A model generated the notes under the pieces. It did no database searches. It was given only the letters and a program-made list of their open reading frames with translations, and was not told where the DNA came from. DNA of 44,326 bases from Candidatus Parvarchaeota archaeon (GTDB lineage Archaea; Nanobdellota; Nanobdellia; WJKC01), in assembly GCA_030615175.1 (NCBI GenBank), contig JAUWZX010000004.1:1-44326 (forward strand), given 5' to 3'. Numbering within the stretch: position 1 is the stretch's first letter; every line of letters starts with the position of its first letter. Below are positions 183 through 30,204 of this stretch, piece after piece. Position numbers and translations under genes: made by a program.

Positions 183-211
183 ATTACCGGACAAGGGGAT
201 ACGGGGTATCC
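183..211 (+). promoter_or_regulatory. 29-bp conserved promoter element, copy 1 (adenine methylase gene)
   Basis: The element opens with ATTACCGGA and ends with the inverted pair GGATAC, three bases, GTATCC (197-211). It matches two other copies (6726-6754 and 30176-30204) without gaps at 22 of 29 positions. Five bases after it comes the TATA-like CTTTAAAAA (217-225), and the methylase ATG follows at 254. Its place directly upstream of the TATA/BRE region suggests a transcription-factor site; this copy has the perfect GGATAC/GTATCC symmetry. Confidence 0.75.
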
Positions 212-253
212 AAACACTTTAAAAATGAAATACATTAAAGAAATGAGAGGATA

Positions 254-1093
254 ATGAAACAAATAAATAGTTATAAAATACCAATTATAGTTAAGTGGGC
301 TGGAGGTAAGACACAATTACTTGAACAATTAAACAAATTCTTTCCCAAAAAAATTGAAAACTACTATGAACCATTCGCTGGCGGCGGAGCCGTGTTTTTC
401 TACATTAAACAAAAATTTAAACCAAAAAAAATAATAATCTCCGACATTAACAAAGACCTAATTAACACATATTTACAAGTAAAGAGTAATACAAACGAAT
501 TATTAAAACTATTAAGAATTCATCAAAAGAAACATTCAAAACAATATTATTATCAAATAAGAGACAGGTTTAACAACAATAAAAAATTAACTGTTCAGCG
601 AGCAGCTGACTTCATTTACTTAAACCATACCTGCTTTAATGGTTTATACAGAGTAAACAGCAAAGGAAAATTTAATGTTCCGATTGGCAGTTACAAAAAC
701 CCAACAATAGCAGACGAAAAAAGACTAAAGAGAGCAAGCAAATTATTACAGGGAGTAATCATAAAATGTCAAGATTACAAAGAAATGATAAAGAATATTT
801 CAGACAAAACCTTCATCTACTTAGACCCTCCTTACTACCCCTTAAATAATACATCCAATTTCACCAGTTACACAAGTAATGGTTTTGGGAAGAGAGAACA
901 AAAAAAACTAGCCATCTTCTTTAATGAATTAAGTAAAAGAGGTGCAAAAGGAATGCTTAGTAATAGCAACACGGATTTCATTAAAGGATTATATTTTAAT
1001 TTTGGTATTCACGAAGTGCTTGCTAAGAGGGCGATAAACTCAAAAGCTGAAGGGCGAGGAGCAATAAGTGAATTACTAATTACTAACTACTAA
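254..1093 (+). CDS. dam: DNA adenine-N6 methyltransferase, DpnM/MboI/Dam type (probably GATC)
   Basis: This 279-residue protein carries the class-alpha D12 methylase signature in order: WAGGK (15-19) and FAGGG (41-45) for AdoMet binding, then the catalytic LDPPYY (190-195). The central segment with TCFNGLYRVNSKGKFNVP and the tail ending SELLITNY closely resemble what I recall of DpnM/MboI methylases, which methylate adenine in GATC. Length is normal for the family. The expected TATA (217-225) puts transcription start near 247, giving a very short leader. It shares the 29-bp promoter element with radA and a DEDD exonuclease. Its A-ending codons match other plus-strand genes, so it does not look newly acquired. 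GATC specificity is inferred from family resemblance and from the scarcity of GATC here. Confidence 0.93.
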   Translation: MKQINSYKIPIIVKWAGGKTQLLEQLNKFFPKKIENYYEPFAGGGAVFFYIKQKFKPKKIIISDINKDLINTYLQVKSNTNELLKLLRIHQKKHSKQYYYQIRDRFNNNKKLTVQRAADFIYLNHTCFNGLYRVNSKGKFNVPIGSYKNPTIADEKRLKRASKLLQGVIIKCQDYKEMIKNISDKTFIYLDPPYYPLNNTSNFTSYTSNGFGKREQKKLAIFFNELSKRGAKGMLSNSNTDFIKGLYFNFGIHEVLAKRAINSKAEGRGAISELLITNY

Positions 1094-1109
1094 AACCACA
1101 TTTTTTCTA

Positions 1110-1595
1110 TCACCTAAAGGTTGCAGCACTTACAACCCTGAAAAGGTCGTCATGGTTTCCTAAGAATGTCTGGAAAAGCCTTAAATTTAGCGTCCCTGTC
1201 GGGTAATTAGTTACTTCTTGGATCATGATTAATTCAATAACTACTAATAAGAATTCAATGGAGTAAACACCAAAATCATTCAATTCTTCGAATTCCTTAA
1301 TGCCTTCCTTATTAAATATTTGTAATTTAGGAGGGAATTCCTTATTGGGCTTAATTTTCTTTATTATGTTACTTATAATGTAATCAACGAAGCTAAGAGT
1401 CAATATTTCATTTCTTGCAAGCTTCATGTAAAGGTCAATAATAACATGAACATGTTTGGGCGTTCTGAGGCGCTTGTTTGGTTCTTTATACCTCACTTTA
1501 AAGTCATGCTTTGATTTCTTACCTTGTTCACAATAAATCTTAACACCATCAGAGGTAATGTATACTAATCCCCTCTGAACCTTAACTTTTTCCAC
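1110..1595 (-). CDS. Hypothetical protein next to the adenine methylase; possible restriction partner
   Basis: This 161-residue basic protein has a beta-rich N-terminus followed by helices containing TPKHVHVIIDLYMKLA. It converges with the methylase, with 16 bases between the stops. I recognise no family and see no clear PD-(D/E)xK or HNH motif. The position beside a DpnM-type methylase makes a restriction-modification role worth testing, but it is much shorter than the roughly 280-residue DpnII or MboI enzymes. Its T-ending codons match the local minus-strand norm. It contains one of the rare GATC sites (1221). Confidence 0.6.
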   Translation of the reverse strand: MEKVKVQRGLVYITSDGVKIYCEQGKKSKHDFKVRYKEPNKRLRTPKHVHVIIDLYMKLARNEILTLSFVDYIISNIIKKIKPNKEFPPKLQIFNKEGIKEFEELNDFGVYSIEFLLVVIELIMIQEVTNYPTGTLNLRLFQTFLGNHDDLFRVVSAATFR

Positions 1596-1758
1596 ATGAA
1601 ATTAAACAAGAAGGTTACTTAAATTAATTTTCATATAACTGAAATCACTTTATTCAAAACTAAAAAATCATAATCCGTAGAAAAAAGCGAAGGTGCTTAT
1701 AAAGCCTTCAGAACCAGACAGTAAGAACTATATTAAACACCTCCTTTTAGTTCTAAAC

Positions 1759-2325
1759 ATGAATCTTAATGAAGTAATGAGTAGAATTAAAAAAAATAAG
1801 GGCAAGGAAATGCCTTCTAAACAAGGGATTTATGTAATCTTTGCAAAAAACCCTTTTAATTTAGTGTTCACCGATGTTTGTAAAGACCAGATAGTTTATG
1901 TTGGTGAAAGCAAAAATCTTAATAACAGACAAGTAAAAAATCACTTTAGAAATGGTAGGACTGGTTCTTCAACATTGCGCAGATCATTAGGTGCAATTTT
2001 TAGAGAAAGTTTTAATTTGAAATGTTACTTACGTGGAAAAAAAATTGATAAGAGTAAAGGTTATAGATTTGATGATAAAGGAGAATCGAGACTTACTAAA
2101 TGGATGATAAAAAATCTTTCAGAATCCTTTTGCGTGACAAGTAATAGTAAAAAAACTAGAGAAACAATTGAGAAAAAAGTTATTGCCTGCTTACCTAAAA
2201 AACCCATTTTAAATTTAAAAAAAATAAAACATGAACATATTAAGCAAATTAGAGAAATGAGAAAAGTTTGTAGAGAAGAAGCTAAGAGAAATGGTCTAAA
2301 GGTTGAACACGTAAAAGAAAAATAA
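1759..2325 (+). CDS. GIY-YIG family nuclease
   Basis: The GIY-YIG fold is visible as QGIYVIF, then IVYVGESKNLNNRQVKNHF with the conserved arginine and histidine, and GSSTLRRSLGAIF. The likely metal-binding glutamate lies in ETIEKKVIACLPKKPILN. The domain is followed by a lysine-rich helical tail. An in-frame GTG at 1693 would add 22 residues, but a TATA-like TTATAAAG near 1697-1704 lies inside that extension, so I prefer ATG 1759 (188 residues). Known relatives include single-domain restriction enzymes such as Eco29kI, homing nucleases and repair enzymes. Unlike most plus-strand neighbours it favours T-ending codons, which suggests acquisition. It may belong to a restriction system with the flanking methylases. 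Confidence 0.85.
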   Translation: MNLNEVMSRIKKNKGKEMPSKQGIYVIFAKNPFNLVFTDVCKDQIVYVGESKNLNNRQVKNHFRNGRTGSSTLRRSLGAIFRESFNLKCYLRGKKIDKSKGYRFDDKGESRLTKWMIKNLSESFCVTSNSKKTRETIEKKVIACLPKKPILNLKKIKHEHIKQIREMRKVCREEAKRNGLKVEHVKEK

Positions 2326-2367
2326 GTGATTAAGAATTTATTAGAGAGGTTGAGAATCAATTAACTT

Positions 2368-2407
2368 TACCGGACAAAGAATCAACCCTTCGAACCTTTG
2401 GTTCGGG
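2368..2407. other. Partial copy of the regulatory element followed by a hairpin, between convergent genes
   Basis: TTACCGGACAA (2368-2378) repeats eleven bases of the 29-bp promoter element, but the GGAYAC/GTATCC half is absent. It is followed by a stem-loop, CGAACC (2391-2396), loop TTT, GGTTCG (2400-2405), extended by two more G-C pairs across a small bulge. The site lies between the 3' ends of the GIY-YIG gene and the second methylase, so it could be a terminator or a scar of rearrangement. Confidence 0.35.
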
Positions 2408-2432
2408 TCCATACCAAAAAAAGATTCTTTTA

Positions 2433-3263
2433 TTAACTTATTTTTAAATTTTCAGAAAAAAACATTACTTCTTCCCCTTTAGTCGTCTTTCCTGCACTAT
2501 AGTTTAATGAAAAAATATCATGTCTATAATTACTGTACAAACTTTTTATTATGTTTGCATTATCGTATGTTAATATCCATTTTTGCTTTTTTATTTTATT
2601 TATCTCTTTACATATGGCCAAATGGTCTTTATACTCATAATAATTAAAATAAAGTTCTTTGCCTTTGGTGTAATAAGGTGGGTCTAAATAGAATAAAGTT
2701 TTTTCTGAAAGTTTTTTACGGAGAATAGGTATCAATTTAATAGCATCCTCATTATGTAATTCAATTTTATCTTTATGTGATGCAATAAATTTAATTTTAT
2801 TAATTAATTCTTTTTTATTATATCTGGAATTTATTTTCCATTTACCTTTTTGTTCTTTCCCACCTATAACTCCTGCGTTTATAATTCCAGAAATATTTGT
2901 CCTATTTAAAAAAAAAGTGGAAAATCCTAAAGAAAGTAAATCAGCATTTTTTTGAGACTTTTGTATCTTTTTTTGTTTTTCCCAATTTTTAATATTAATA
3001 GGGGTTTTTTTAATTAATTCACATAATTTTTCAGTCTTGTTTAATACAGAGTACCAGAATGCATAAATTGAAAGGTCTATATCATTAATAATAATTTGGG
3101 ACGTATAACCTTCAAAAAGAAGTGAAAGAGCTACTGAAGCACCACCCGCATAAGGTTCAATATATACTCCTCCTTTTAAATCATTTTTTTCAATAATTTT
3201 TTTAAAATAATTAACAATCTTATATTTTCCTCCAGGGTATCTAAGTGGAGAATAAAATGTCAT
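2433..3263 (-). CDS. D12-class DNA adenine-N6 methyltransferase (second copy)
   Basis: The methylase motifs appear in order: LRYPGGK (7-13), EPYAGGASV (36-44) and FYLDPPYY (191-198). The target-recognition region (about 95-160) differs from that of the methylase at 254, so specificity may differ. I place the start at the ATG at 3263: it follows a GAGG ribosome-binding site and its ATGA overlaps the stop of the ParB-like gene. The 276 residues are normal for the family. Base composition is visibly more AT-rich than the rest of the window, and the gene is translationally coupled to a ParB-like partner, suggesting a transferred two-gene module. Confidence 0.9.
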   Translation of the reverse strand: MTFYSPLRYPGGKYKIVNYFKKIIEKNDLKGGVYIEPYAGGASVALSLLFEGYTSQIIINDIDLSIYAFWYSVLNKTEKLCELIKKTPINIKNWEKQKKIQKSQKNADLLSLGFSTFFLNRTNISGIINAGVIGGKEQKGKWKINSRYNKKELINKIKFIASHKDKIELHNEDAIKLIPILRKKLSEKTLFYLDPPYYTKGKELYFNYYEYKDHLAICKEINKIKKQKWILTYDNANIIKSLYSNYRHDIFSLNYSAGKTTKGEEVMFFSENLKIS

Positions 3264-4570
3264 TTTTTCCTCTTTTTTTCTATTTCTGCAATCTTTTCCC
3301 AAATTATTTCAAAAAACTCCTGCAAATTATCCCACTTATATATTAAATCAACAGGAACGGGTTGAGTTCTAAACGAATGCACATATTCATGAAAATTATT
3401 AATTGAAAGTATAGAACTCCCTTTATTTGTTACTGCCCTAATATTTTTTAGTTGTTTTTTGTTGACCCCTTCTTTTTCTAAAATTTCTGTTACTTTTGTG
3501 ATTTTTCCTGCAAGTTTAATATTTTTACCAAAAGATGAACCAATTTTTTCAGCATAAAAGTCTAAACTAGTTTCTAAAAAAACTCTAAATAATACTGCAA
3601 TTGCGTTAGTCCCCTTATCTAGTAGAAGAGACTTTAATTCATGATAGATATTATTAATCTTTGTTTCATGTATCCTTAATATACATGTAGAAGGGATAAG
3701 AGTATTTCTGCTACTAGATTTTGGGAGACTTTTCTTACGTTTAATTTTGCTTTTTTCAGCAACTCCTTTAGAGGAAATAAACATCCTTACTCTAGATCTA
3801 TTTGGTTTTTCTCCAAAAAGGTTTTTCATAAATCTAATCTTTTTTTCGGTATTATATACTTCTCTTACAGGAACATTTTCTATAATAATTTTATTAAATA
3901 AAATATCTAATCTTTCAACTACTTCTTTTTTTAGAGCAGTTAAAAAAACCTTTCCATTAACAATATCTAAACCTAAAAAAGATCTAGATTCAGGATTTGT
4001 CAAAATACGTTCAATAGTAGTAACTTTTAATTTATCTGTATTTATTTTAGATTTAGTTTCTCGTTCAAAGAAAGTTATAACTTTCATAGTAGGAGATATT
4101 TTTCCTTCAAATTTAAAACCAAATCTTTCCTGTTCTGCAGTCCCCCATGGATCTAAACCTACCCCTTTATTTTTGCCTGTATGATCTAATTTAATCCATT
4201 TTGAAGCTTCTTCTTCGGTTTTGTATATAAAACAATTTACCTTTTTAGGAATATTTGCCTTTTTGGTAATTTTAACAAATTTTTTCTTTAAAGATTCAAT
4301 TTTTATCAATGAAAGATCCAATAAGCACTTGATAGCTGTAGCCCTTCTATTTCCATCTAAGATCAAAAAGAGATTATTTTTTATTTCTAAAACCCTAAAA
4401 TCTTTTGCTTTATCTAGTCCATTTTCAACAATATGCTTCGCTAAATTTAAAATTTCTGATCCTTTCTCTTCCAACATTAAATTAATGGCCTGGTTCTGGC
4501 CTTCTACAGGATCAAATCGGTAATTATATGGATTAACAATTAGCTTATCAATAGTAATCTTTTTCTTCAT
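3260..4570 (-). CDS. ParB/sulfiredoxin-fold protein with helical C-terminus, coupled to a methylase
   Basis: The N-terminus (1-90) resembles the ParB/Srx nucleotide-binding fold: ITIDKLIVNPYNYRFD, then LFLILDGNRRATAIK (68-81) carrying the family's GxRR-type motif. Residues about 90-270 are basic and unassigned. The C-terminus (about 315-430) is helical, with VLFRVFLETSLDFY and NFHEYVHSF, reminiscent of HEPN-like or DUF4145-like segments (weak inference). It is not a chromosome-partition ParB: no ParA and no obvious HTH. An ATGA overlap couples it to the D12 methylase, so a role in DNA modification or defence is likely. A TATA near 4592-4601 fits a leaderless start. The gene is AT-rich and holds eight GATC sites, while GATC is rare elsewhere. 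Confidence 0.72.
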   Translation of the reverse strand: MKKKITIDKLIVNPYNYRFDPVEGQNQAINLMLEEKGSEILNLAKHIVENGLDKAKDFRVLEIKNNLFLILDGNRRATAIKCLLDLSLIKIESLKKKFVKITKKANIPKKVNCFIYKTEEEASKWIKLDHTGKNKGVGLDPWGTAEQERFGFKFEGKISPTMKVITFFERETKSKINTDKLKVTTIERILTNPESRSFLGLDIVNGKVFLTALKKEVVERLDILFNKIIIENVPVREVYNTEKKIRFMKNLFGEKPNRSRVRMFISSKGVAEKSKIKRKKSLPKSSSRNTLIPSTCILRIHETKINNIYHELKSLLLDKGTNAIAVLFRVFLETSLDFYAEKIGSSFGKNIKLAGKITKVTEILEKEGVNKKQLKNIRAVTNKGSSILSINNFHEYVHSFRTQPVPVDLIYKWDNLQEFFEIIWEKIAEIEKKRKK

Positions 4571-4693
4571 TAATTTTTACTAAAAGACAATAATATTAAA
4601 ACATATCTCTGATTAAATATCTGTTCAAATTATTCTTTTGGGAATATTTTTGTCAATAAAATATTAAGGGATGGGCGCGCTCATGGTTGATTT

Positions 4694-5224
4694 ATGGGTT
4701 TGGAAAAAGCGTTGAAGGATTATGGAAAACACTTGAAGGCGTATCGCGAGGCGCTAAGAGAGGAAGAGGCATTAAAAAAGAGCGAAGAGGAAAGATTCTG
4801 GAATCTGGAGAGAAAGAATTACGGGGAAAAATTAACACAGGCAAAAGAGATATGTGAATGGGTAAAAGCGTTCACGAAAACAAAAGAATACAAAGAAATA
4901 ATAAAGCACTTCGAGGCATACGACTTAATGAAACTAGGCGGGATAAGCGACGGCCTGATAATACACAACGGAGGATGGGGTCACAAACACAAAGACTCAC
5001 GCGGCTGCTGGTCAAGAATCTACCTAAACCAGAACGGAACACTAAACTACAAAGCATGGTATAAATGGCTTGGAATAAAAACCACGCTAAAACTAAAGAA
5101 ACCAGAAGACCTAGCAGGAAAACTAAACCAGGAATACATAAATGAACTGCACAAATCAATAATTACAGGCGAAATAATAAGAACCCTTGACAAAGAAATA
5201 AAAGAAGAAATAAAAAGACTATAA
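4694..5224 (+). CDS. Hypothetical protein with N-terminal coiled coil
   Basis: The 176-residue product begins with a charged helix likely to form a coiled coil (residues 1-60, rich in Glu and Lys). A more globular middle follows, with GLIIHNGGWGHKHKDSRGCWSRIYL and NYKAWYKWLG, and then a charged C-terminal helix. The Gly/His/Trp-rich patch is distinctive but I cannot assign it. The 3' end overlaps the convergent MBL gene by six bases. AC-rich codon use is normal for plus-strand genes here. Confidence 0.6.
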   Translation: MGLEKALKDYGKHLKAYREALREEEALKKSEEERFWNLERKNYGEKLTQAKEICEWVKAFTKTKEYKEIIKHFEAYDLMKLGGISDGLIIHNGGWGHKHKDSRGCWSRIYLNQNGTLNYKAWYKWLGIKTTLKLKKPEDLAGKLNQEYINELHKSIITGEIIRTLDKEIKEEIKRL

Positions 5225-6688
5225 CTGATATTTCTTACCTTCATTCACTAACTTCACTTTCTTATGAACTTCCTTATAGAGCTCAGGGAATTCAGTGTGA
5301 ATAGGAATAAGCAATTTAGGGTTAATGGATTCAACCATTTTGAAAAGGTGATTGCCAGAAGCGTGGCCAGAAGCATGAATCTTATTCTGAGGATACAAGT
5401 TGAACTTGCGAAGCCAGTTATTAATACGCTTCTCATCAAGCTCCATTTCCTCACTAAAAGGCTCGCAAATACTCCTGATGTGAACACTGCCAGGAACAGG
5501 CTGAATGTCAAGCAAGTTATTCAATTGAAAATAATTCATGAAGACAACGTATTTGCCCTGATTCTTACTAATATCCCCCGCAGTCACGACATTAGATTGA
5601 TTCAGATACTCCTTCTCCCAGGACTTGTAATCACGAGCAACCTGCTCCTCAGGCACGCCAGTCCTGCCAATCAAACCCCAACCCTTACGAGGAAAAAAAA
5701 TCTTAATAAACTCATCATCAGAAGCAGGCAGTTCAGTAACGCCCTCCAAACGCAATAAGTCCAATAACAATGCCTGACGCGACTCAATCACAAGAGAACG
5801 ATTATTACTAACCGCAGTCTTATAAAAAGTAAGCAAGCGGTCAGTATCACGAATAGGGAAATTAGCAATCACAACACCCTTCTTATCCTTAATAAGCTTG
5901 GTTGACTGTTTCTCAACATAACCCTCGGTACGGGCAGAGGAATCCTTAATACGCGTGCCCTCAGATAACATGCAAACCGGCTCTGACTCAGCCGCCTTCT
6001 CAACAAAATAATCACTCCAATCCTTATGACGACCATGAAAACGCAAATCACCAGTATAAATAACGTTGCCAATCGAAGTATTAATAACAAAACCAGCAGC
6101 TCCAGGCAATGAATGATCAACACGATAAGGAGTAACCTCTAAATTACCAATCTTAAAAGGCTTATTAAAAGAGAAATCATTAACAACACGCTCCTCCAAA
6201 CCATCACGAGCAGTGCGCCTCTTAACCCCATCACTACGCTTCTTAGGAATGAAAATGAAAGAAGGATTAAACTTGCAGAAATCATTATAAGCCCCTCCGC
6301 CAACAGTATCAAACAAACTCATAATCGCCTTGCTCTCAGGACTAACGTGAACAGGAATATCCCTGCGCAGAAAATGAACATAACCAAGATGGTCAAGATG
6401 AGCATGACTGATAAGGACGCCGTCAACAGAATTCCTCTCAGAATAATTAAGACCATTATGCTTGCAGTAATCACGCCTGTAAATCCCCTTCAAATCAGGA
6501 AGCATGCCCAAAGCAATTAAATCCTTAATACTGGAAAACTTGCGCGGAGGCATGAACTCAGTGAAATAAGACGCCTGCTCTTCAAAATTCATCCCGAAAT
6601 CCAATAGAATACGAGTACCCTTATCCTCCAAAAGAATCTTATTACCGCCAATCTTGCCCACTCCGCCATAAAAAGACAATGAAGTCAT
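5219..6688 (-). CDS. MBL-fold (RNase J/beta-CASP-like) metallo-nuclease
   Basis: The metallo-beta-lactamase motif is SHAHLDHLGY (94-103), with further ligand candidates at RVDHSLPGAAGF and in IYTGDLRFHG. The C-terminus has ASGHASGNHLFKMVESINPKLLIPIHTEFPELY, as in beta-CASP RNases of the RNase J/aCPSF group, which process or degrade RNA. At 489 residues it is near RNase J length. I use the ATG at 6688: TTTATAAG at 6711-6718 puts a leaderless transcript exactly there, whereas the upstream in-frame codons lie between the TATA box and the start. It is divergent from the DEDD exonuclease, with regulatory copy 2 between the two TATA boxes, so both may be controlled together. Confidence 0.88.
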   Translation of the reverse strand: MTSLSFYGGVGKIGGNKILLEDKGTRILLDFGMNFEEQASYFTEFMPPRKFSSIKDLIALGMLPDLKGIYRRDYCKHNGLNYSERNSVDGVLISHAHLDHLGYVHFLRRDIPVHVSPESKAIMSLFDTVGGGAYNDFCKFNPSFIFIPKKRSDGVKRRTARDGLEERVVNDFSFNKPFKIGNLEVTPYRVDHSLPGAAGFVINTSIGNVIYTGDLRFHGRHKDWSDYFVEKAAESEPVCMLSEGTRIKDSSARTEGYVEKQSTKLIKDKKGVVIANFPIRDTDRLLTFYKTAVSNNRSLVIESRQALLLDLLRLEGVTELPASDDEFIKIFFPRKGWGLIGRTGVPEEQVARDYKSWEKEYLNQSNVVTAGDISKNQGKYVVFMNYFQLNNLLDIQPVPGSVHIRSICEPFSEEMELDEKRINNWLRKFNLYPQNKIHASGHASGNHLFKMVESINPKLLIPIHTEFPELYKEVHKKVKLVNEGKKYQL

Positions 6689-6725
6689 AAGAAATGAATA
6701 ACACAATTAACTTATAAACGTTTAT

Positions 6726-6754
6726 ATTACCGGAAAAGAGGACACTAGGTATCC
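6726..6754 (+). promoter_or_regulatory. 29-bp conserved promoter element, copy 2 (exonuclease / MBL divergent promoter)
   Basis: ATTACCGGA begins the element and GGACAC, three bases, GTATCC (6740-6754) ends it. It aligns without gaps to copies 1 and 3. Five bases after it lies the TATA-like TATTTAAAG (6760-6768), about 26 bases before ATG 6790. On the other side, eight bases away, is the TATA box of the divergent MBL gene, so a bound factor could affect both promoters. Confidence 0.75.
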
Positions 6755-6789
6755 GTTAATATTTAAAGTATTAATGAATGACAACACAA

Positions 6790-7383
6790 ATGACTCTCCA
6801 CTACCTGGACATTGAAACATGCAGGAAAACACCTGAGAATGATGAAAGAGACGGATTCAACCCTCATAAAGGAAAAATAATCACCATCCAATACCAGCCA
6901 ATAGATAAAAGAACAGGACAACTAACAGGCAAACTAACAATACTAAAGGAATGGGAATTAGGCGAGAAAACAATGATTCAGCAATTCAAACCAGTATTCC
7001 TAGGATACAATCATCCAATAACATGCTTTGAATTCACGCCAGTTGGATACAACCTGAAATTCGAAATAGACTTCCTAAGACATAAATTAATAGAACACTG
7101 CAACCTCGACAGGAGACCACACCTGTTATGGACTAAAAAACCAATCATAGACTTATTCAGCTCAGTCGTTATTGCAAACAACTGCAACTTCAAAGGAGCA
7201 AAACTAAACAATTTCAGCTCAAAAATACATGACGGAAGCATAATAACACAATTATATGAAAACAAGCAATACGACGAAATCATAAAATACATAAAAGATG
7301 AAGCAGAAGGATTCTCAGAAATACTGAAAAAATTAATCAGAACACTGCCAGGAATACTAACATCAAAAAGCTTAAATACATAA
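6790..7383 (+). CDS. DEDD-superfamily 3'-5' exonuclease (DnaQ/RNase H-like)
   Basis: The protein opens with YLDIET, the first acidic motif of DEDD exonucleases, followed by TPVGYNLKFEIDFLRHKL (motif II with an Asp). A likely third acidic motif is near YDEIIKYIKDEAEG. It is about 197 residues, a stand-alone proofreading-type domain. I choose ATG 6790 over 6778 because TATTTAAAG at 6760-6768 places transcription start there and the protein then begins directly with the domain. It shares the 29-bp element with radA and the methylase, which supports a DNA-repair or processing role. The unknown gene 19 bases downstream is probably cotranscribed. Confidence 0.8.
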   Translation: MTLHYLDIETCRKTPENDERDGFNPHKGKIITIQYQPIDKRTGQLTGKLTILKEWELGEKTMIQQFKPVFLGYNHPITCFEFTPVGYNLKFEIDFLRHKLIEHCNLDRRPHLLWTKKPIIDLFSSVVIANNCNFKGAKLNNFSSKIHDGSIITQLYENKQYDEIIKYIKDEAEGFSEILKKLIRTLPGILTSKSLNT

Positions 7384-7402
7384 AACAAGAAGAATAAACC
7401 CA

Positions 7403-7978
7403 ATGAACAATTATAAACGCGCGCCAGAAGGCGGAATAATAAAATTCGATTACTCAGACCCTGTAAAAGGGATAAGAATCAAGAATGAAATACTCGTTGA
7501 CAGTGAAAAAGCAGTAATGAAAGAAGAAATAGAGCATTACAAGACAAACAAACTAAAAGTAGTAAGGCTGGATAAAGTAAACAGGGAAGAACAATTCCCA
7601 TGCTTCAATGAAACTAAAGGACCAGTAGACATGAAAGCAGAATACACAGAAGAACAATTCCTTAACATAGAAATAGAACTATCACAGGAAAACGGTCAAT
7701 GCTGGCTTCATGAAGAATCAATAAAAAGACTTGAAAACATGATAGGAATCGAACTAACACAACAGGACAACAAGCTTAAAGGAAGCGAATTATACATGAT
7801 GCTAATAAACCAGGATGATGAAGGCAACATGATGCCTAAAAGAAACCTTAGAATCAGCAGGGGAGCAAGCGACCCTCACCCGCCAGGATACTACCAGTTA
7901 TTCATAATAATAATGGATACATGGGAGTACGTCAGAAGACAAGTGAGAGCAGCAATTACAGTAGATTTAATTAAATAA
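7403..7978 (+). CDS. Hypothetical protein
   Basis: This 191-residue soluble acidic protein has no family I recognise. Visible segments include a beta-rich N-terminus (GGIIKFDYSDPVKGIRI), a central Glu/Gln-rich part with QCWLHEESIKRLENMIG, and PHPPGYYQLFIIIMDTWEYV near the end. It follows the exonuclease by 19 bases on the same strand and is likely in the same transcript. Its last 12 bases overlap the convergent amidohydrolase gene. Confidence 0.65.
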   Translation: MNNYKRAPEGGIIKFDYSDPVKGIRIKNEILVDSEKAVMKEEIEHYKTNKLKVVRLDKVNREEQFPCFNETKGPVDMKAEYTEEQFLNIEIELSQENGQCWLHEESIKRLENMIGIELTQQDNKLKGSELYMMLINQDDEGNMMPKRNLRISRGASDPHPPGYYQLFIIIMDTWEYVRRQVRAAITVDLIK

Positions 7979-8935: not shown

Positions 8936-8973
8936 ATCATTAATACTTTGAAAGAATTAATTTTTAAATGTTT

Positions 8974-21367: not shown

Positions 21368-21372
21368 TAATA

Positions 21373-22296: not shown

Positions 22297-22302
22297 TTAA
22301 TT

Positions 22303-22725
22303 CTAAAAAATTAATAAAACACCTAACAAGAATATTGAAGTCTCAAAAGCAAGGTAACGCTTATTCTTCACTATGTCCTTAATAAAATTTATAGGATTAT
22401 CATATTTCTTATTACTGCTCTTGTAAATAAAGAACTCCTTATCACTAAGCGGGTAAAATAATTTAATGCCGGGATAAGTTGTTAAGTCAACAAGCAAGTG
22501 AAGCATAATGCCAATAGCCACTGGAATTGAAATAAAAGCAATAATTAACGGAATGAACATTGAATGCAAAAACGTTCTGTGATTCTTACGATAATCAAAG
22601 CCAAAAAAGTAAGGCAAAGCGTCAAAGTCAGGCAGCAAACTGCCAATAATAACTAATAATGGATTCAAATCAGCCAGCCTTGAAAAAATAAGTCCAACAC
22701 CGAAATGCCCTGGGAATGCAAGCAT
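22303..22725 (-). CDS. YdjM/DUF457-type membrane-bound metal-dependent hydrolase
   Basis: The protein starts MLAFPGHFGVGLIF and continues with IIGSLLPDFDALPYFFGFDYRKNHRTFLHSMF and GIMLHLLVDLTTYPG. The His, Asp and HRTxxHS residues are the conserved potential metal ligands of the YdjM (LexA-regulated in E. coli) family. About four membrane segments are visible. The reaction is unknown; a lipid-related hydrolase role is only suspected. The gene stands alone between ftsY and srp54, on the opposite strand. Confidence 0.82.
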   Translation of the reverse strand: MLAFPGHFGVGLIFSRLADLNPLLVIIGSLLPDFDALPYFFGFDYRKNHRTFLHSMFIPLIIAFISIPVAIGIMLHLLVDLTTYPGIKLFYPLSDKEFFIYKSSNKKYDNPINFIKDIVKNKRYLAFETSIFLLGVLLIF

Positions 22726-22782
22726 GATTCAATATCTGATAAACCGAACATTTAAAAAGTTAAAGGATTATTTCTAAAGTCC

Positions 22783-24147
22783 ATGGTCTTAAAGAACTTT
22801 GGAAACGCGTTAAAAGAAAGCATACGTAAGCTAATCTCCAAAGTAATAATAGATAAGAAAAGCATTAATGAATTCATCAGTGACATTCAGCGCGCAATGA
22901 TAACAGGCGACGTTGACGTAAAACTCGTATTCGAACTGACAAAGAAAATAAAAAATGAAATACTGAAAAGCAAGGCATTCTCAAAAAAAGAACAAGTAGT
23001 GAAAATAGTTTATAACAACTTAGTTAAATTCCTTGGCAGTGAAGGAGGAAGGATTGACACAGGCAAGAAACCGCTGAAAATACTGCTGATAGGGACTTTC
23101 GGGTCAGGCAAGACAACGACTTGCGGTAAACTAGCAAAGTACTTCAAGAAAAAAGGATTAAAGACAGCACTACTAGCACTTGACACGTTCAGGCCTGCAG
23201 CAGTAGAGCAATTAGAACAAATAGGAAGCAAAGCCCAGGTAACAGTAATGCTTAACAAGAAGGAGAAAAAAGCTCATAAGATAGTGAAAGAATTCAAAGA
23301 CTCATTTAAGAAATATAACCTTATAATCGCGGACTCAGCAGGAAGAGACAGCCTTGACAAGGACTTAATCAAGGAAATTAAATCAATACATAAAGCATTA
23401 AATCCTGATGAAATATTACTAATCATTCCTGCAGACATGGGTCAGGCAGCGCGCACTCAAGCAGTTGAATTCCACAAAGCACTAGGCATAACAGGAATAA
23501 TAATCACTAAACTTGACGGCACGGCAAAAGGAGGAGGCGCGTTATCAGCATGCGCTGCATCAGAAGCACCGGTAAAATTCATAGGCACTGGCGAAGGACT
23601 TAATGATTTTGAATTATTTAATCCGAAAAGATTCGTGTCAAGATTACTTGGCATGGGTGACTTGGAAACATTACTGGAAAAAGCTCATGAAGAATTAGAC
23701 CTGAATGAAGTAAAGGACTTAGGTGAGAAATTCTTCTCAGGCAAATTTAACTTAATGGACTTATACCAGCAATTACAAGCAGTACGCAAGTTAGGCAGTT
23801 TCTCCAAAATCCTTAACTTAATACCAGGCGCTGGCACGATAAAACTGCCTAAAGGCATGCTTGACTTGCAGGAAGATAACGTGAAGAAATTCAAACACTT
23901 AATGGACTCAATGACTAAGGAAGAATTAGAGAATCCTAAAGTACTGAATACTTCAAGAATTGAACGCGCAGCCAAAGGAGCAGGCAATGAAGTCAAGGAT
24001 GTCAGATTACTCTTAAAACAGTACGGTCAGATGAAAAACATGGTTAAGAAACTGCAAGGCGGCAACTTAAAGAAGATGATGAAGAAACTAGGCATCAAGA
24101 ACTTGAAAGCGCTTGAAGGAATGGACTTAGGAGGCTTAGAAACATGA
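22783..24147 (+). CDS. srp54: Signal recognition particle 54 kDa protein
   Basis: SRP54 binds signal peptides and 7S RNA and targets ribosomes to FtsY. The N domain (1-95) precedes the GTPase motifs: LIGTFGSGKTTTCGKLA, DTFRPAAVEQLEQI, IIADSAGRDSLDKDL, IITKLDGTAKGGGALS. The methionine-rich M domain follows (about 310-454), with PGAGTIKLPKGMLDLQ, RIERAAKGAGNEVKDV and a Met/Lys-rich end. G3 reads DSAGR instead of the usual DTAGR, a mild change. Length of 454 is normal. Its stop overlaps the start of a small cysteine-rich gene. Confidence 0.96.
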   Translation: MVLKNFGNALKESIRKLISKVIIDKKSINEFISDIQRAMITGDVDVKLVFELTKKIKNEILKSKAFSKKEQVVKIVYNNLVKFLGSEGGRIDTGKKPLKILLIGTFGSGKTTTCGKLAKYFKKKGLKTALLALDTFRPAAVEQLEQIGSKAQVTVMLNKKEKKAHKIVKEFKDSFKKYNLIIADSAGRDSLDKDLIKEIKSIHKALNPDEILLIIPADMGQAARTQAVEFHKALGITGIIITKLDGTAKGGGALSACAASEAPVKFIGTGEGLNDFELFNPKRFVSRLLGMGDLETLLEKAHEELDLNEVKDLGEKFFSGKFNLMDLYQQLQAVRKLGSFSKILNLIPGAGTIKLPKGMLDLQEDNVKKFKHLMDSMTKEELENPKVLNTSRIERAAKGAGNEVKDVRLLLKQYGQMKNMVKKLQGGNLKKMMKKLGIKNLKALEGMDLGGLET

Positions 24148-24281
24148 AGTGCACTAAATGCAAGAAGAAAATTAAAACAACATTCCTGAACAAGATTATA
24201 GGCACATACATTAAAGGAAAACCCTACTGCAAGGACTGCCAGAAGAAAATAAATAAGAAAATAAAAAAAATTACTTCTTAA
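24144..24281 (+). CDS. Small lysine-rich zinc-binding protein
   Basis: ATG 24144 overlaps the srp54 stop (ATGA), and the frame runs 45 residues to TAA 24279-24281. It has CTKCKKK at the start and YCKDCQKK later, 23 residues between the pairs, with about a third lysine. It is too short for an automatic gene caller, but the overlap coupling and the paired cysteines argue it is real. A zinc knuckle that contacts RNA is plausible. It overlaps the next convergent gene by 11 bases. Confidence 0.6.
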   Translation: MKCTKCKKKIKTTFLNKIIGTYIKGKPYCKDCQKKINKKIKKITS

Positions 24282-24549
24282 TCAAAGGACACCAAGTTAA
24301 TACACAGTTATAAGTCAATGCGAAAATTAATCCGAAAACGAATCCATCAATAGCAGCCCATAAAGCGCCAATAAAGATTCCAATCAAAGTCACGCTATAA
24401 CCAATGTAAAGACTGCTAATAGAACTCACTAAAGGAGTAGCCCAGCCAAACAAACTAATAACTCCAAGCAATACAATACCAATAGTCCACGTGATTAACG
24501 AAGCACCACTAAAAGCCCACACATTTAATTTAGGCAACCTCGAAGCCAT
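24271..24549 (-). CDS. Small membrane protein (archaeal holin-like family)
   Basis: The 92 residues contain two or three membrane helices, including FSGASLITWTIGIVLLGVIS and VTLIGIFIGALWAAIDGFVFGLIFALTYN. The SSLYIGYSVTLIGIFIGALWAAIDGF block resembles small archaeal proteins that databases often label bacteriophage holin. There is no phage context here, so that name should not be taken as function. The C-terminus overlaps the small zinc-protein gene by 11 bases. Confidence 0.65.
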   Translation of the reverse strand: MASRLPKLNVWAFSGASLITWTIGIVLLGVISLFGWATPLVSSISSLYIGYSVTLIGIFIGALWAAIDGFVFGLIFALTYNCVLTWCPLIKK

Positions 24550-24582
24550 GAAAGATTATTAATCATTAAAGCATTTAATACT

Positions 24583-24942
24583 TTGCTCATGAAAGGCATT
24601 TACATACTGTTAATAAAGATTAAAAAGAACTTAAAAATAAAGATTGGCTCACTCGGAGTCATTGAATTTAACAAAGGCTGCTATGCTTACGTTGGCTCAA
24701 GCCAGAATAACTTAATAAAAAGAGTGCACAGGCATTACTCAAATAATAAGAAGATTCACTGGCACATTGACTACTTACTCAATAATGATGAAACAGTTAT
24801 TAAAAGCGTTTACTGCAAGGAATTAAGCAAGGAATGGGAATGCAGGATTGCCAAGGAATTAAGTGATAAAGGAGAAATAGTGCAAGGATTCGGGAGCAGT
24901 GACTGCAAATGCAGCAGTCACTTAATTAAAATAGGAATGTAA
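24583..24942 (+). CDS. DUF123 (GIY-YIG-like) protein
   Basis: The sequence has the features of DUF123: KGIYILLIKI, SLGVIEFNKGCYAYVGSSQNNLIKRVHRH, KKIHWHIDYLL and the C-terminal GFGSSDCKCSSHLIKI. In several archaea this domain is fused to the C-terminus of an endonuclease III-like glycosylase; here it stands alone (119 residues). ATG 24589 is an equally good start. The conserved YVGS, arginine and HWHIDY suggest a nuclease-like active site, but activity has not been established to my knowledge. Its end is two bases from proS on the other strand. Confidence 0.85.
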   Translation: MLMKGIYILLIKIKKNLKIKIGSLGVIEFNKGCYAYVGSSQNNLIKRVHRHYSNNKKIHWHIDYLLNNDETVIKSVYCKELSKEWECRIAKELSDKGEIVQGFGSSDCKCSSHLIKIGM

Positions 24943-24943
24943 T

Positions 24944-26407
24944 CTAGTACTCCCTTGCAATGTAAACAACGCTTTCAGCCTTACTGCCGCACGCAACGCA
25001 CTTAGTCCACGGCCGCTCCTCAACATCAATCCTCACGCCCCTCACTTCAGCAGTTAAATCACTCTTAATCTTATTAGCGCACTTAAAACCATTCATGCCA
25101 ATAGAACAATAAGATGCCCTGGCAATCCTCCTGTCACCAATCACCTTCTTTAACCCGGAATAATCATTAACAGTCACAATACAATCCTTAAACTCCTTGT
25201 CAGCCTGCCTGATTAAAGTACTGGTGATTTCATCACCCAGCTTCCTAATACCCTTTAATGCAGACCTCTTAATCACCTTCTTCGTTCTCAAGTCACGCCT
25301 ATAAACAGTAACAGTCTTATTTTTAACTTCTTTAACTCCAACCTCAAACCTTACTGGAACTCCCTTCATCTCCCAGTAATAATACTTACTCCCAGGCATT
25401 TTATCACCATCATCAATCACAACCCTTAAACCATTCTTTACTAACTCACCCTTCAAGTCATTACAATACTTCAAAACTGCCTTCTCAGAACCCTTACTGA
25501 TTATTGGAATAATAATGACCTGCACAGGAGCGAGATTGAAAGGCAGTCTTAAACCATTATTATCACCATGCACTGCAATAAGAGAAGCATAAATCCTTGA
25601 AATAGCAGGTCCATAACAAGTCTGCCAGCCATACCTCTTCACCTCATCCTTATCAGTGAAAGTAATATTAAACGGTTTAGAAAACTTCTGTCCAAGCAAA
25701 TGAGTTGAAGGCTGCTGCATTACCTTGCCGTCAGGCATTACCACATCACAAGCATAAGTGTACTCAGCGCCAGGGAACTTATCCCACTCAGGCCTCTTAA
25801 AGTGAATGAATGGAATGCCAAAAACACCACTAATAACCCGCTTGGACATCCCTAAATCCTCCCTCACCTGAGCCTCCGCTTCCTCACGGGAAGCGAAAAC
25901 GTCATGCGCCTCAATCCAGTAAAACTCCCTTGTCCTAATGAACGGTTTAGTGGCCTTAGTCTCCCACCTGAAAACATTAGCGCGCTGATACAACTTTAAC
26001 GGCAAATCCTTCCAACTCCTAACCCATAACTCATACATCTGATAAAAAGCAGTCTCTGAAGTTGACCTGAGCGCATACCTCTGCCCAAGTTTCTTGCGCT
26101 TACCAACCTCTGTAACAAAAATTAATTCAGGCATGAATCCAATAACGTGCTCCGCCTCCTTCCTATAACTTGACTCAGGAATTAATAAAGGAAAATAACA
26201 AGGTTTATGACCAGTTAACTGCAGCTCCCTCTCATAAATATCATACATTAACTCCATCGTTATAACTGACCACGGCCTGAAAACGTAAAACCCCTTAAGA
26301 TTATAACGGTCATCAACTAATTCAGCAACCCTGACAATAGTATTATACCACTTTGAAAAATCCTTCCTCTTATTAATATTAAATGTTTCAACATCCTTCC
26401 CAGCCAT
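24944..26407 (-). CDS. proS: Prolyl-tRNA synthetase, archaeal/eukaryotic type
   Basis: ProS attaches proline to tRNA-Pro. Class II motifs are visible: motif 1 with GFYVFRPWSVITMELMYDI, motif 2 in YQRANVFRWETKATKPFIRTREFYWIEAHDVF, motif 3 in GLRLPFNLAPVQVIIIPI. The anticodon-binding domain follows, and a C-terminal zinc-like domain with CSIGMNGFKCANK and TKCVACGSKAESVVYIAREY closes the protein. The C-terminal aromatic tyrosine is typical of this archaeal form, which lacks the bacterial editing insertion. Length of 487 is normal. Codons follow the T/G-ending minus-strand pattern. Confidence 0.96.
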   Translation of the reverse strand: MAGKDVETFNINKRKDFSKWYNTIVRVAELVDDRYNLKGFYVFRPWSVITMELMYDIYERELQLTGHKPCYFPLLIPESSYRKEAEHVIGFMPELIFVTEVGKRKKLGQRYALRSTSETAFYQMYELWVRSWKDLPLKLYQRANVFRWETKATKPFIRTREFYWIEAHDVFASREEAEAQVREDLGMSKRVISGVFGIPFIHFKRPEWDKFPGAEYTYACDVVMPDGKVMQQPSTHLLGQKFSKPFNITFTDKDEVKRYGWQTCYGPAISRIYASLIAVHGDNNGLRLPFNLAPVQVIIIPIISKGSEKAVLKYCNDLKGELVKNGLRVVIDDGDKMPGSKYYYWEMKGVPVRFEVGVKEVKNKTVTVYRRDLRTKKVIKRSALKGIRKLGDEITSTLIRQADKEFKDCIVTVNDYSGLKKVIGDRRIARASYCSIGMNGFKCANKIKSDLTAEVRGVRIDVEERPWTKCVACGSKAESVVYIAREY

Positions 26408-26487
26408 GAATGCTTAGAAGATGATAATAACTTAAAAAACTTACTTAACACAGCATTTTTTCGAAAAGATTATTAAACTAATCATCC

Positions 26488-27831
26488 ATGATTTATAACT
26501 CAATGATTGAATCAATTAAGAAAACAATAGCTGATAATAACATCAAGTTCGTGCGATTACTATTCACCGACATATTCGGCAAATTAAAAAGCTGCGAAAT
26601 ACCTATAGAACGCCTGCAAAAAGCCTTAAATGAAGGAATTGGTTTTGACGGCTCATCAGTTCAGGGATGGACAAGGGTTCATGAAAGCGACATGCTGTTA
26701 AAACCAGACATTAAAACCTTCAGAATCCTAAGTTATAAAGAACAGCAATTAACGCGCACAGCAGGCATTTTCTGCGACATAGTAACCCCTAACAACCAGC
26801 CATTTGAAGGAGACCCCAGATTCATTCTAAAAAAAGTCCTGGCTGAAGCTGAAAGCATGGGCTTAGAGTACAGGACAGGACCAGAACTTGAATTCTACTT
26901 ATTCAAGAAAACAGACCTTGATGAAGGACGCGTCAAGCCATTAGACGCAGGAGACTACTTTGACCTGGCACCACTAGACAATAGCGCGAGTATTAGGAAA
27001 AGAATAATTAATGCTCTTGAAAGAAGGATAAGAGTGCCTGTTGAAATGAGCCATCATGAATGCGGTCCAGGCCAGCATGAAATTGACATAAAGTACGGGC
27101 AAGCCATTAACATGGCTGACAGCATCATGCTGTCAAAATACCTTATTAAAAGGATTTGCTCTGATGAAGGATTATACGCTTCTTTCATGCCAAAACCCGT
27201 TTACGGCATCCCTGGTTCAGGAATGCACATTCATCAAAGCCTGTGGAGTAAAGGAGTTAACGCATTCCACAAAGAAGATGACAAATACAGGTTAAGCAGA
27301 ACAGCATACAGCTTCCTTGCAGGGCAGTTAAAACACATTAAAGCCATAACCTGCATTACTAACCCAATAATTAATTCTTATAAACGATTAGTCTCAGGCT
27401 TCGAAGCACCAGTCTATATCTGCTGGGCTAGGATGAACAGGTCAGCGCTCATTAGAATCCCATTAAGCAAGAATGATAAAAGCACCAGGCTTGAATTAAG
27501 AAGCCCTGACCCCTCATGCAATCCATACTTAGCCATGGCAGTCATGCTCAAAGCAGGGATTAACGGCATTAAAAACAATCTTAAACCATCAAAACCAATC
27601 GAAGAAAATGTTTATGACTTCAATAAAGCAAAACTAGCCGAGCACTACATTAACACGCTGCCAAAAACAATTCATGAAGCAACCATGGAACTGAAAAAAG
27701 ATGAAACAGTGCAAAGCGTTCTAGGCAAATTCATAACAAACAAGATAATAGAAGCCAATGAAACCATCTGGAAAGAATACAGCACTCAAGTAACTGATTA
27801 TGAAATTAAAAAATACCTGCCAATACTATAA
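26488..27831 (+). CDS. glnA: Glutamine synthetase type I
   Basis: The enzyme makes glutamine from glutamate, ammonia and ATP. Signature motifs are present: IGFDGSSVQGW, GPELEFYLFKK, HHECGPGQHEIDIKYG, PKPVYGIPGSGMHIHQSLW (ATP and ammonium sites) and TRLELRSPDPSCNPYLAMA near the C-terminus. The 447-residue length fits the GSI-alpha dodecamer type. It stands alone with its own promoter and no nearby PII or glutamate synthase gene. The usual adenylylation tyrosine region is not clearly conserved, as expected for GSI-alpha. Confidence 0.96.
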   Translation: MIYNSMIESIKKTIADNNIKFVRLLFTDIFGKLKSCEIPIERLQKALNEGIGFDGSSVQGWTRVHESDMLLKPDIKTFRILSYKEQQLTRTAGIFCDIVTPNNQPFEGDPRFILKKVLAEAESMGLEYRTGPELEFYLFKKTDLDEGRVKPLDAGDYFDLAPLDNSASIRKRIINALERRIRVPVEMSHHECGPGQHEIDIKYGQAINMADSIMLSKYLIKRICSDEGLYASFMPKPVYGIPGSGMHIHQSLWSKGVNAFHKEDDKYRLSRTAYSFLAGQLKHIKAITCITNPIINSYKRLVSGFEAPVYICWARMNRSALIRIPLSKNDKSTRLELRSPDPSCNPYLAMAVMLKAGINGIKNNLKPSKPIEENVYDFNKAKLAEHYINTLPKTIHEATMELKKDETVQSVLGKFITNKIIEANETIWKEYSTQVTDYEIKKYLPIL

Positions 27832-27865
27832 TTAATCATCAAATAATTTACTACTAATATCATGA

Positions 27866-28588
27866 TTAATCATCCAGAAATCTTAAGGACTTCAACTCCC
27901 CTTCCTCCTCCTCCATTAAAGCCTCCTTAACGCCCGCAGTGCATGATAATTTATTCCTTATTAACCATAAATCTGAAGGAATCACCTTCTCTTTACCTAA
28001 CCCTTTAATGCTGAACCATTTAAGTCTTCCATGACCAGACTCCTTAAAACGCGCAGGGCATTGTTCTGGCATCATGACTTTAGTGAAGAATAAAATAAAA
28101 CCATGCTTAATCATGCCGCCATCCATAACCCTCTCATGCAGCACAGCATTCAATGAAGAGTAATTCACATTCAACGAAGTCTTAGTCCTGACCAGCCTTA
28201 ATGCAGCATCCTTAAAACTCTCCTCTAAACCCATCTTGCCCCCAATCATGCCCCAGTAACCCTTATACGGCCTCTTATTCCTCTTAATTAAAAGAATCTT
28301 ATCATCATTAATAATGGCTGCAAGCACGACTGGCAGGACGCCAACCATGCTCCCAGTTATGTAAGGGAACACCGGCATGTACTTCTCAGCATTCTTAGTT
28401 AACTGATAATAATCACCTTTCTTCTCTATTAAACCATGCTCCACTAGTATTCCTAAATGATAAGCAATCATGTTAGAACGTATTCCAACCCCCTTCTCTA
28501 TTTCACTAAACCTCAACCTGGTCTCGTTCAGAAACAATTTAAATATCTGTTCCCTCTCCTCCTTAACAAGACTCCCCGAGTGATTCAT
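27866..28588 (-). CDS. Winged-helix regulator fused to a catalytically dead Nudix domain
   Basis: Residues 8-70 form a winged helix (RSNMIAYHLGILVEHGLIEKKGDYYQLT). Residues about 84-215 have a Nudix fold with VLAAIINDDKILLIKR and WGMIGGKMG. The Nudix box should read G-x5-E-x7-REUxEExGU, but here G117, E123 and R131 are followed by LVRTKTSL, so the metal-binding glutamates are gone. A dead Nudix fused to an HTH is the logic of NrtR regulators (there Nudix first, HTH second; here reversed). It is divergent, 63 bases apart, from an intact Nudix gene, which is the natural target. The ligand is unknown. Confidence 0.85.
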   Translation of the reverse strand: MNHSGSLVKEEREQIFKLFLNETRLRFSEIEKGVGIRSNMIAYHLGILVEHGLIEKKGDYYQLTKNAEKYMPVFPYITGSMVGVLPVVLAAIINDDKILLIKRNKRPYKGYWGMIGGKMGLEESFKDAALRLVRTKTSLNVNYSSLNAVLHERVMDGGMIKHGFILFFTKVMMPEQCPARFKESGHGRLKWFSIKGLGKEKVIPSDLWLIRNKLSCTAGVKEALMEEEEGELKSLRFLDD

Positions 28589-28651
28589 TATTACTCAAAT
28601 TAATTCGAGGAATAACTTAAATACTTTTTCATAATAAATTACAAAATTAAA

Positions 28652-29140
28652 ATGAATATTAACAAAGCGCATTACGTTGTTGTTACAGGCATAATCATAA
28701 AGGACGGGAAATTCTTAATCACTAAAAGAGCGCCAACAGAAAAAGCATTCCCGAACTTATGGACTGTCCCTGGAGGCAAATTAGAATTAAAAGATTATGA
28801 AGGCAGGCAGAAAGACACTAACTCCCACTGGTATAACATATTTGAAGAATTACTGAAAAGAGAGGTTAAGGAGGAAACGAGTCTGGACATTAAGAACATT
28901 AAATACTTAACAAGCCTTGTTTTCATAAGACCTGACGGAATACCAACAGTAGTTGTCAGCTTATTCGCAGAACACTATAATGGTGCAGTAAAATTAAATG
29001 ATGAGTCAATAGATTACGCCTGGGTGACATTAGATGAAGCAAGAAATTATGAATTAATTGACGGGATTTACGAAGAACTGGAAATGCTTGACAAGCACTT
29101 GAAAGGAGGGCAAATAATTGAATGGAAAAAAAGAATTTAA
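28652..29140 (+). CDS. Nudix hydrolase with an insertion in the Nudix box
   Basis: The catalytic half is intact ([12 protein letters not shown], residues 69-80 with Glu-71, 74 and 75) and is preceded by [16 protein letters not shown]. About 16 extra residues (around 47-62, including [12 protein letters not shown]) separate the glycine and the REVKEE helix, longer than the standard box spacing. The substrate is unspecified: [20 protein letters not shown] resembles MutT-like and ADP-sugar-like enzymes. At 162 residues it is a single domain. It is divergent from the HTH/dead-Nudix regulator and its stop overlaps the end of radA by four bases. Confidence 0.86.
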
Positions 29141-30138
29141 TCCTCAATTCCCTTCTCAGTGACCCTGAAAATGCATTCACCGTCAGGAAGGCATGGACTA
29201 TCTATTAAGCGCGCTATCCTCTTATCGCCACGGGACTTGCGCAAGTACAGTCTGTACGTCGAGGCGTGCGCAAGTATGTTCCCACCGACAGCAGTGGTTG
29301 GGTCTCCGAAGAAAACATCAGGACGCGAAATGGCTTGATTAGTCACGAAAACTGCAATATTATAACGGTCAGCAAGCCGTTGAAGCAAGTGCAAGTGCTT
29401 GTTCAGTTTCTGCTGTCGGTCAGCCAGAGTGCCCCTGCCAATATACTCAGCGCGGAAAAGGCCTGTAAGTGAATCAATAATAATTATTTTAATAGGCCTG
29501 CCTTTCTTTTCTATTAAATCAGGAATTTTCTCAGCCAACAGCATTTGATGGTCTGTTGAGAACGCGCGGGCAACATGAATGCGGGATAATACTTTCTTAG
29601 GGTCAAGACCTCTGTGGCGCGCTAATTCATCAATTCGCCTGGTGCGGAAAGTATTCTCAGAATCAATAAGTATTGCGTCACCATCAAGACCGCCATCCTT
29701 CTCAGGTAACTGGACAGTAACGCATAACTGGAATGCTAATTGCGACTTTCCTGAACCAAACTTACCGAATACTTCTGTAATGCTCTGACTTTCAATGCCT
29801 TTACCGCCTAATAACTTGTCAAACTCATTGCTGCCAGTAGTTACGTAAGTCATAGAATCATTCTTCTCCATTAACTCAATGCCTGTTAAGAAATTCATAT
29901 TAAGACGCGAGCGCGCTTCATTAACTATTTTACGAGCAGTTGCCTCGCCAAGGTCAGCAGCGTCAGCAACTTCCCTGACAGGAGCAGTAGCTAAAGCCAT
30001 TAAGTCAATGAATCCTGCCTCTTCAAGTTTTTCAGCAGTCTTCGGGCCAACACCAGGCAAGGTCTCAATATCAACTACTTCAGGACTATCAATTACTTTC
30101 GGACTATCAATTACTTCTTCCTTGTCCTTTTCAGCCAT
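29137..30138 (-). CDS. radA: RadA DNA recombinase
   Basis: RadA is the archaeal RecA/Rad51 homologue for strand exchange. The helix-hairpin-helix N-domain ([25 protein letters not shown], 27-51) is followed by the core with Walker [12 protein letters not shown] (125-135), Walker [16 protein letters not shown] and the L2-region [28 protein letters not shown]. Walker A has GKFGSGKS where GEFGSGKT is usual, a small change. Length of 333 is normal. TTTTTTAAG (30162-30170) places a leaderless start at the ATG, and the 29-bp element ends five bases before it. Confidence 0.96.
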
Positions 30139-30175
30139 GATTAAGAACTTAAAAAGGAGTACTTAAAAAAGATTT

Positions 30176-30204
30176 GGATACCCTGTGTCCTGTTTTCCGG
30201 TAAT
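30176..30204 (-). promoter_or_regulatory. 29-bp conserved promoter element, copy 3 (radA / divergent gene)
   Basis: On the minus strand the element begins ATTACCGGA (30204-30196) and ends GGACAC, three bases, GTATCC (30190-30176). It points toward radA, ending five bases before its TATA box. The divergent plus-strand gene at 30254 has a TATA-like AAATATATT starting about 15 bases from the other end, so it may share the control. Confidence 0.75.

Follow-up and report, generated by a model that had tools for sequence, protein, structure and literature searches.

To our knowledge, Archaea have no recognised SOS system, and the described archaeal DNA damage responses, namely the Orc1-2 response of Sulfolobus and the radA motif of Halobacterium, cover few repair genes. 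The subject here is a 29-bp element that occurs three times in a 44,326-nucleotide contig of a Candidatus Parvarchaeota archaeon (JAUWZX010000004.1, referred to in its whole length as the window), where it is found upstream of genes that include a dam-type methylase gene and radA, and which is likely to be the binding site of a transcription factor. Among the closest described elements is that of Sulfolobus and Saccharolobus, A(N)TTTC, located at −39 to −44 from the transcription start site; Orc1-2 binds it and TFB3 acts as coactivator (PMC5817253, PMC9738581). Similar to the element of the window, it lies directly upstream of the B recognition element (BRE) and TATA box of its damage-induced promoters, and a TFB-recruiting activator has been proposed. 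It is, however, 6 bp rather than 29 bp long and unrelated in sequence, and neither ANTTTC nor GAAANT is conserved in the aligned sites of the present study. The Sulfolobus response activates the ups/ced DNA transfer genes, tfb3 and Dpo2, and according to one report repair genes are not seen to rise after ultraviolet irradiation (PMC2246294). In contrast, the site described here precedes genes for recombination and repair.

In Halobacterium NRC-1, an 11-bp motif, TTTCACTTTCA, is found upstream of radA1, top6B, vng17 and vng280 (PMC2556686). In both systems, radA and a few further genes, co-induced in Halobacterium, have one motif 5′ of their TATA boxes; the Halobacterium motif differs in its unrelated sequence, its length of 11 bp and its confinement to four or five genes in halophiles and one methanogen, a group that includes no methylase, Hef, NreA or counterpart of the microprotein described below. 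No TTTCACTTTCA was seen by eye upstream of the radA TATA box in the genome that contains the window (the home genome) or in 27 relatives. Bacterial SOS resembles the present case in that the recombinase, repair genes and a conserved small protein have a common operator. One difference from LexA is the placement of the site, which lies upstream of the core promoter and not on it, as a repressor operator would; compared with the palindromic LexA operator, it ends 5 bp before the TATA box and is a palindrome in part only, one copy reading GGATAC-N3-GTATCC. Among the genes considered here none was recognised as LexA-like, a genome-wide search for LexA not being part of the analysis. PafBC and DriD, which are bacterial LexA-independent damage activators with a WYL domain (PMC6789036, PMC12340889), are alike as activators of scattered damage-response promoters and differ in acting on bacterial promoters through WYL-family factors. 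No description of such a regulon in DPANN archaea was found in the literature searched, which excluded many subscription journals.

The window is contig C3 of the home assembly, G000 (1,015,312 bp, five contigs, 87% complete); labels beginning with G, C, L and f denote genomes, contigs, loci and families of this study. Three ungapped 29-bp copies had been reported in an initial annotation, and all are found exactly where it placed them: copy 1 (183..211, plus strand) upstream of the dam-type methylase gene, copy 2 (6726..6754, plus strand) between divergent genes, and copy 3 (30176..30204, minus strand) upstream of radA. The ungapped alignment contains a left block, ATTACCGGA, a middle block, GGAYAC, and a right block, GGTATCC, and is identical at 23 of 29 columns on recounting, a correction of the 22 first given. 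In all three copies, as had been noted, the 3′ end of the element lies 5 bp before a TATA-like box, which reads CTTTAAAAA (217..225, plus) at copy 1, TATTTAAAG (6760..6768, plus) at copy 2 and TTTTTTAAG (30162..30170, minus) at copy 3, and a start codon follows shortly downstream. The view that chance cannot easily explain the copies is borne out by three matches at up to three mismatches in the window against none in 100 dinucleotide-preserving shuffles. The further claim that all three downstream genes act on DNA holds in part. Hidden Markov models identify RadA (29137..30138, minus; TIGR02236, 464 bits against a cutoff of 361) and a Dam-family adenine methyltransferase of the D12 class (254..1093, plus; Pfam PF02086, E 7e-71; TIGR00571 dam above cutoff). 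The supposed exonuclease, a 201-residue protein encoded by the first gene past copy 2 (6778..7383, plus), has no Pfam, NCBIfam or PHROG match and is exonuclease-like by eye only, through DIET and YNxxFE-like motifs (DIET, GYNLKFEIDFL). An AlphaFold model of this protein (predicted local distance difference test score 41) was uninterpretable and was set aside.

A 20-base consensus, searched at up to three mismatches over the 1,015,312 bp of the home genome, finds six sites, compared with none for a reversed-pattern control. The identical search of 370 other genomes of the phylum (most of the genomes compared are incomplete) gives 16 matches against 13 for the control, or about 0.04 per genome. 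Apart from two promoters of family f26 that carry the exact pattern, this is chance level, and the exact consensus is thus private to the home lineage. From the same rate, the Poisson probability of the three additional home sites is about 1e-5. In a sequence-only profile, the six home sites score 40–47 bits and the next best match 13.8 bits, with no degraded series between them. Model-based E-values are circular for the sites from which the model was built; the non-circular evidence comprises the out-of-sample promoters and their genes. All six strong sites are intergenic and are followed by a TATA-like box exactly 5 bases behind and then by a DNA-acting or probable DNA-acting gene. The site at C2:185 precedes a 109-residue HNH-like open reading frame (ORF) with a weak PHROG endonuclease VII match, behind which a C5 cytosine methylase is recognised in the sequence. 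The site at C5:538783 precedes a 168-residue protein that exceeds the gathering score of DUF4130 and also matches TIGR03915, a putative DNA-repair family, below its cutoff, and the site at C5:68988 precedes a Hef helicase (NF010337 equivalog, 621 bits against a cutoff of 610). Together with the 13.8-bit match, the genome scan that the initial annotation had proposed yields seven home sites, all of them intergenic and directly 5′ of gene starts, with none inside a gene.

In other families of the class, the element is visualized in a diverged form, a GGA-N5-GG core about 28 bp before the TATA box. Reading of radA promoters in the home genome and in 27 relatives shows diverged forms in the usual geometry. 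In G001, the sole relative within the home taxonomic family, the radA promoter reads ATTAACGGACACGATGACTATACTATAAT-AATGC-TTTTATATT; that of G148 reads ATTATAGGAATAGTGGCACTGCACTATCT-AATTT-CTTTTAAAA, and G132 is similar. When the sites are aligned, the first GGA stands at a steady distance of about 28 bp from the TATA box, the right arm moves by a few bases, and the five spacer bases at the BRE position show no conserved pattern. Description of the element as a simple palindrome was rejected, the perfect GGATAC-N3-GTATCC being present in one copy only and the right arm being shifted in the f26 sites. A core-plus-TATA pattern, GGAWTARNGGAA-N16-TTTWWAA, was run at up to two mismatches on 13 genomes and gives 97 forward matches against 27 for the reversed control in five f26 genomes. 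Among the f26 matches that were read, promoter-like ones precede a 227–228-residue protein and the microprotein in five of five genomes each, NreA in four, an SSB-like protein with an oligonucleotide-binding (OB) fold in three and RadA in two. An Mrr_cat nuclease, a 63-residue ORF and a BRO-N protein follow sites in two genomes each, and single cases are a TIGR03916 radical SAM protein, a TIGR03491 RecB-like nuclease, Dcm, a YhcG nuclease and MCM. A second profile, built from 12 sites and run on 378 genomes of the class, adds NreA in f60, the TIGR03916 protein in f90 and a rad3/XPD-type helicase in f63; other weak profile matches in distant genomes, mostly inside genes, were discarded. TIGR03915 and TIGR03916 are putative DNA-repair proteins for which a link has been described, and the site precedes the former in the home genome and the latter in f26 and f90. 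The element is conserved at fixed spacing before orthologous genes in other genomes, those of f26, as is expected of a cis-regulatory element and not of a repeat.

The 13.8-bit home match, at C5:70396, reads ATTACCGGACGTGGACGCGTGCTCTATCC-GTCGC-CTTATAAAG, with the usual spacer and TATA box, and is followed by an ATG and a 47-residue ORF, MTGFINYWDLMRDLEHRRHELNLIRAWYKQRMELAFKKIKMLKLKNN. The ORF is a homologue of microproteins encountered independently in other families: the best full-length profile matches in f26 and f60 all precede ORFs of 40–46 residues with the pattern M.G...Y.dlM...-E..-...lEWYK.Ri. Protein searches find additional homologues in G074, G298 and G001, and these genes, found by protein similarity, have a recognisable element in G074 and G001 and a partial one in G298. 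The home ORF scores 13.7 bits against a profile of eight members, a weak score when taken alone. Its locus is flanked by tRNA-Val(CAC) and tRNA-Gly(CCC), as are those in G317 and G001, and tRNA-Val(CAC) adjoins the ORF in G148 too. Codon comparison of three pairs gives ratios of nonsynonymous to synonymous differences (pN/pS) of 0.16, 0.27 and 0.50, as a protein-coding gene would show. No meaningful Pfam, NCBIfam or PDB sequence match was found for the microprotein, which represents a new family missed by annotation and a likely core component of the regulon. A second, inverted left arm, ATTACCGGACACG, lies on the opposite strand just upstream of the stretch that comprises the seventh site and the home ORF (L083:3897-4105, corresponding to G000:C5:70396-70604), and this promoter may hold two sites.

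A shared cis-element precedes a recombinase and several repair genes, the functional class that characterises a DNA-damage regulon, and the DNA-repair/modification regulon proposed in the initial annotation gains support from both the new home sites and the diverged sites before repair genes elsewhere. Judged by site, spacing, conservation and gene content, all of which can be read from the DNA, one transcription factor is likely to bind the element and through it to control a DNA-repair/modification regulon, with damage as the most probable inducer, and the element is likely to have diverged in related families. Archaeal activators that recruit TFB/TBP bind directly upstream of the BRE and TATA box, while repressors usually cover the BRE, the TATA box or the start site (see also PMC5817253). 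The position of the site, immediately 5′ of the BRE/TATA region and at constant spacing from it, favours an activator, and the lack of a conserved BRE pattern in the spacer fits weak promoters that depend on an activator. The factor would bind just upstream of the BRE/TATA region and recruit TFB/TBP to otherwise weak promoters, and DNA damage would switch it on, making the system an archaeal counterpart of SOS; activation rather than repression, the damage signal and a single factor with a drifting recognition sequence are the parts of this scheme that we infer. Such a switch would place DNA methylases and restriction nucleases under common control with recombination. The element also enables a concrete search for the regulator by promoter pull-down with a defined 47-bp fragment.

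Several points weigh against this reading. Because the sequence diverges between families, a single orthologous factor is a matter of inference. About 50 of the 97 f26 matches were read, chosen by sequence and blind to the gene, not at random. Among the f26 matches are non-repair genes encoding a thermosome, an ABC permease, an SGNH hydrolase and an HD protein, which are probably chance matches. The set of sites varies by family, with Hef and Dam seen only in the home genome and NreA and SSB sites seen only outside it, the home promoters of the latter two not having been examined. Finally, a single duplication may have given rise to both the dam and the HNH/Dcm sites.

Of the other explanations, the one that survives best is that the regulon is real and follows replication or the cell cycle (S phase), not damage. 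An MCM promoter is among the f26 matches, and RadA, the SSB-like protein and nucleases serve replication forks too. However, MCM is a single match, no PCNA, polymerase, primase or RFC promoter is among the matches read, and NreA, Hef, the radical SAM/DUF4130 proteins, Mrr, the RecB-like nuclease and the restriction-modification genes have repair or DNA-processing functions, which makes a replication regulon unlikely. A response to foreign DNA (viruses or DNA uptake), in which restriction-modification, nucleases and recombinase are switched jointly, would explain the sites before Dam, HNH/Dcm, Dcm, Mrr-like, YhcG and RecB/Cas4-like genes. This is an improbable account of RadA, NreA, Hef, the XPD-like helicase and the radical SAM/DUF4130 proteins, which are repair proteins or linked to repair, and no CRISPR or uptake gene was seen with the site; a search of 2.9 million viral contigs found no exact copy of the home motif, which is not a direct test of this explanation. 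Another possibility, in our estimate equally improbable, puts a general factor in the place of a classical regulator: an alternative TFB/TBP would read the element as an extension of the core promoter. The constant 5-bp spacing to the TATA box, where TFB binds, and the spacer without a conserved BRE would agree with it, but 29 bp far exceeds the length of a BRE, and the right arm, together with a pair of GG blocks separated by 8 bp, suggests that the binder is larger or dimeric. A dispersed repeat, transposon end or chance similarity can be dismissed almost entirely and is already contradicted by the genome scan. A duplicated gene does give the dam and HNH/Dcm sites (on C3 and C2) some upstream sequence in common, but the flanks outside the element are otherwise unrelated, the sites always lie upstream of gene starts, the reversed control is zero in the home genome, and promoters of orthologous genes are conserved in other families.

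For the damage-responsive activator, a wider scope is somewhat favoured: a class-wide SOS equivalent in DPANN archaea (Nanoarchaeia-type), in which an activator whose site, GGA-N5-GG...TATC, drifts in sequence and stands 28 bp ahead of the TATA box would control recombination, repair and restriction-modification, together with a universal effector or regulator microprotein of 40–47 residues encoded beside tRNA genes. An operator conserved across several DPANN families would be the first handle on damage sensing and response in these reduced, mostly uncultivated archaea. The sole DNA-binding protein seen with a site is a winged-helix protein of G300, L137. It was rejected as the shared factor: it has its own site in G300 but no homologue in the home genome, and its orthologues have no element before the G373 copy and none recognisable before the G249 copy, the upstream region of which is partly masked.

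Further observations concern genes behind diverged sites. Where tested, the 227–228-residue f26 protein (L302, L132, L135, L339, L321) matches nothing in Pfam, NCBIfam or PDB, and it is a candidate new repair protein. Its 227-residue form resembles DUF4130 by eye, but BLAST and profile comparison do not support homology, and there is no match to a solved structure. The 63-residue ORF is lysine-rich and conserved behind the element in G376 and G300 (L327:729-917, L337:230-418) and has no Pfam match. G036 and G249 (f26, genus g33; 96% and 90% complete) have no RadA match at E 1e-30, although RadA is present, and preceded by the site, in other f26 genomes. In the more distant family f13, G052 has a weak site (L106) before the gene of a MutS-related ATPase, which begins with a helix-hairpin-helix-like segment and may belong to the regulon. 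In f60, a site with its TATA box has no ORF behind it in L128 and L129 (G132:C41, G148:C15); the stretch that follows is conserved in both genomes, contains inverted repeats, GGAGAGCAAAGCTCTCC, has no Rfam match and is possibly a damage-linked small RNA.

Within the window, copy 2 is flanked on its other side by a divergent gene for a metallo-beta-lactamase/RMMBL nuclease (5219..6706, minus; HMM match). A 191-residue protein without assigned function is encoded 19 bp behind the exonuclease-like gene (7403..7978, plus), with which it is possibly co-transcribed, and a 132-residue protein, also without assigned function, is encoded divergently from radA (30254..30652, plus). Co-control of these two divergent genes, for the nuclease and the 132-residue protein, is a conjecture of the initial annotation. 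The nearest match to the home RadA among named relatives, all of them uncultivated DPANN genomes, is that of isolate Bin_444 (73% identity). In the contig starts (1–182 of the window and G000:C2 1–182), C2 and C3 share their first 141 bases identically and have a 22-base overlap with the ends of C1 and C5. A small zinc-ribbon-like gene is present in two copies, each being followed by the element, and the methylase loci past the two copies differ, with Dam in one and HNH plus cytosine methylase in the other. The neighbours of Dam include a GIY-YIG nuclease (1693–2325) and a second D12 methylase (2433–3302, minus), and the start of the contig looks like a restriction-modification island.

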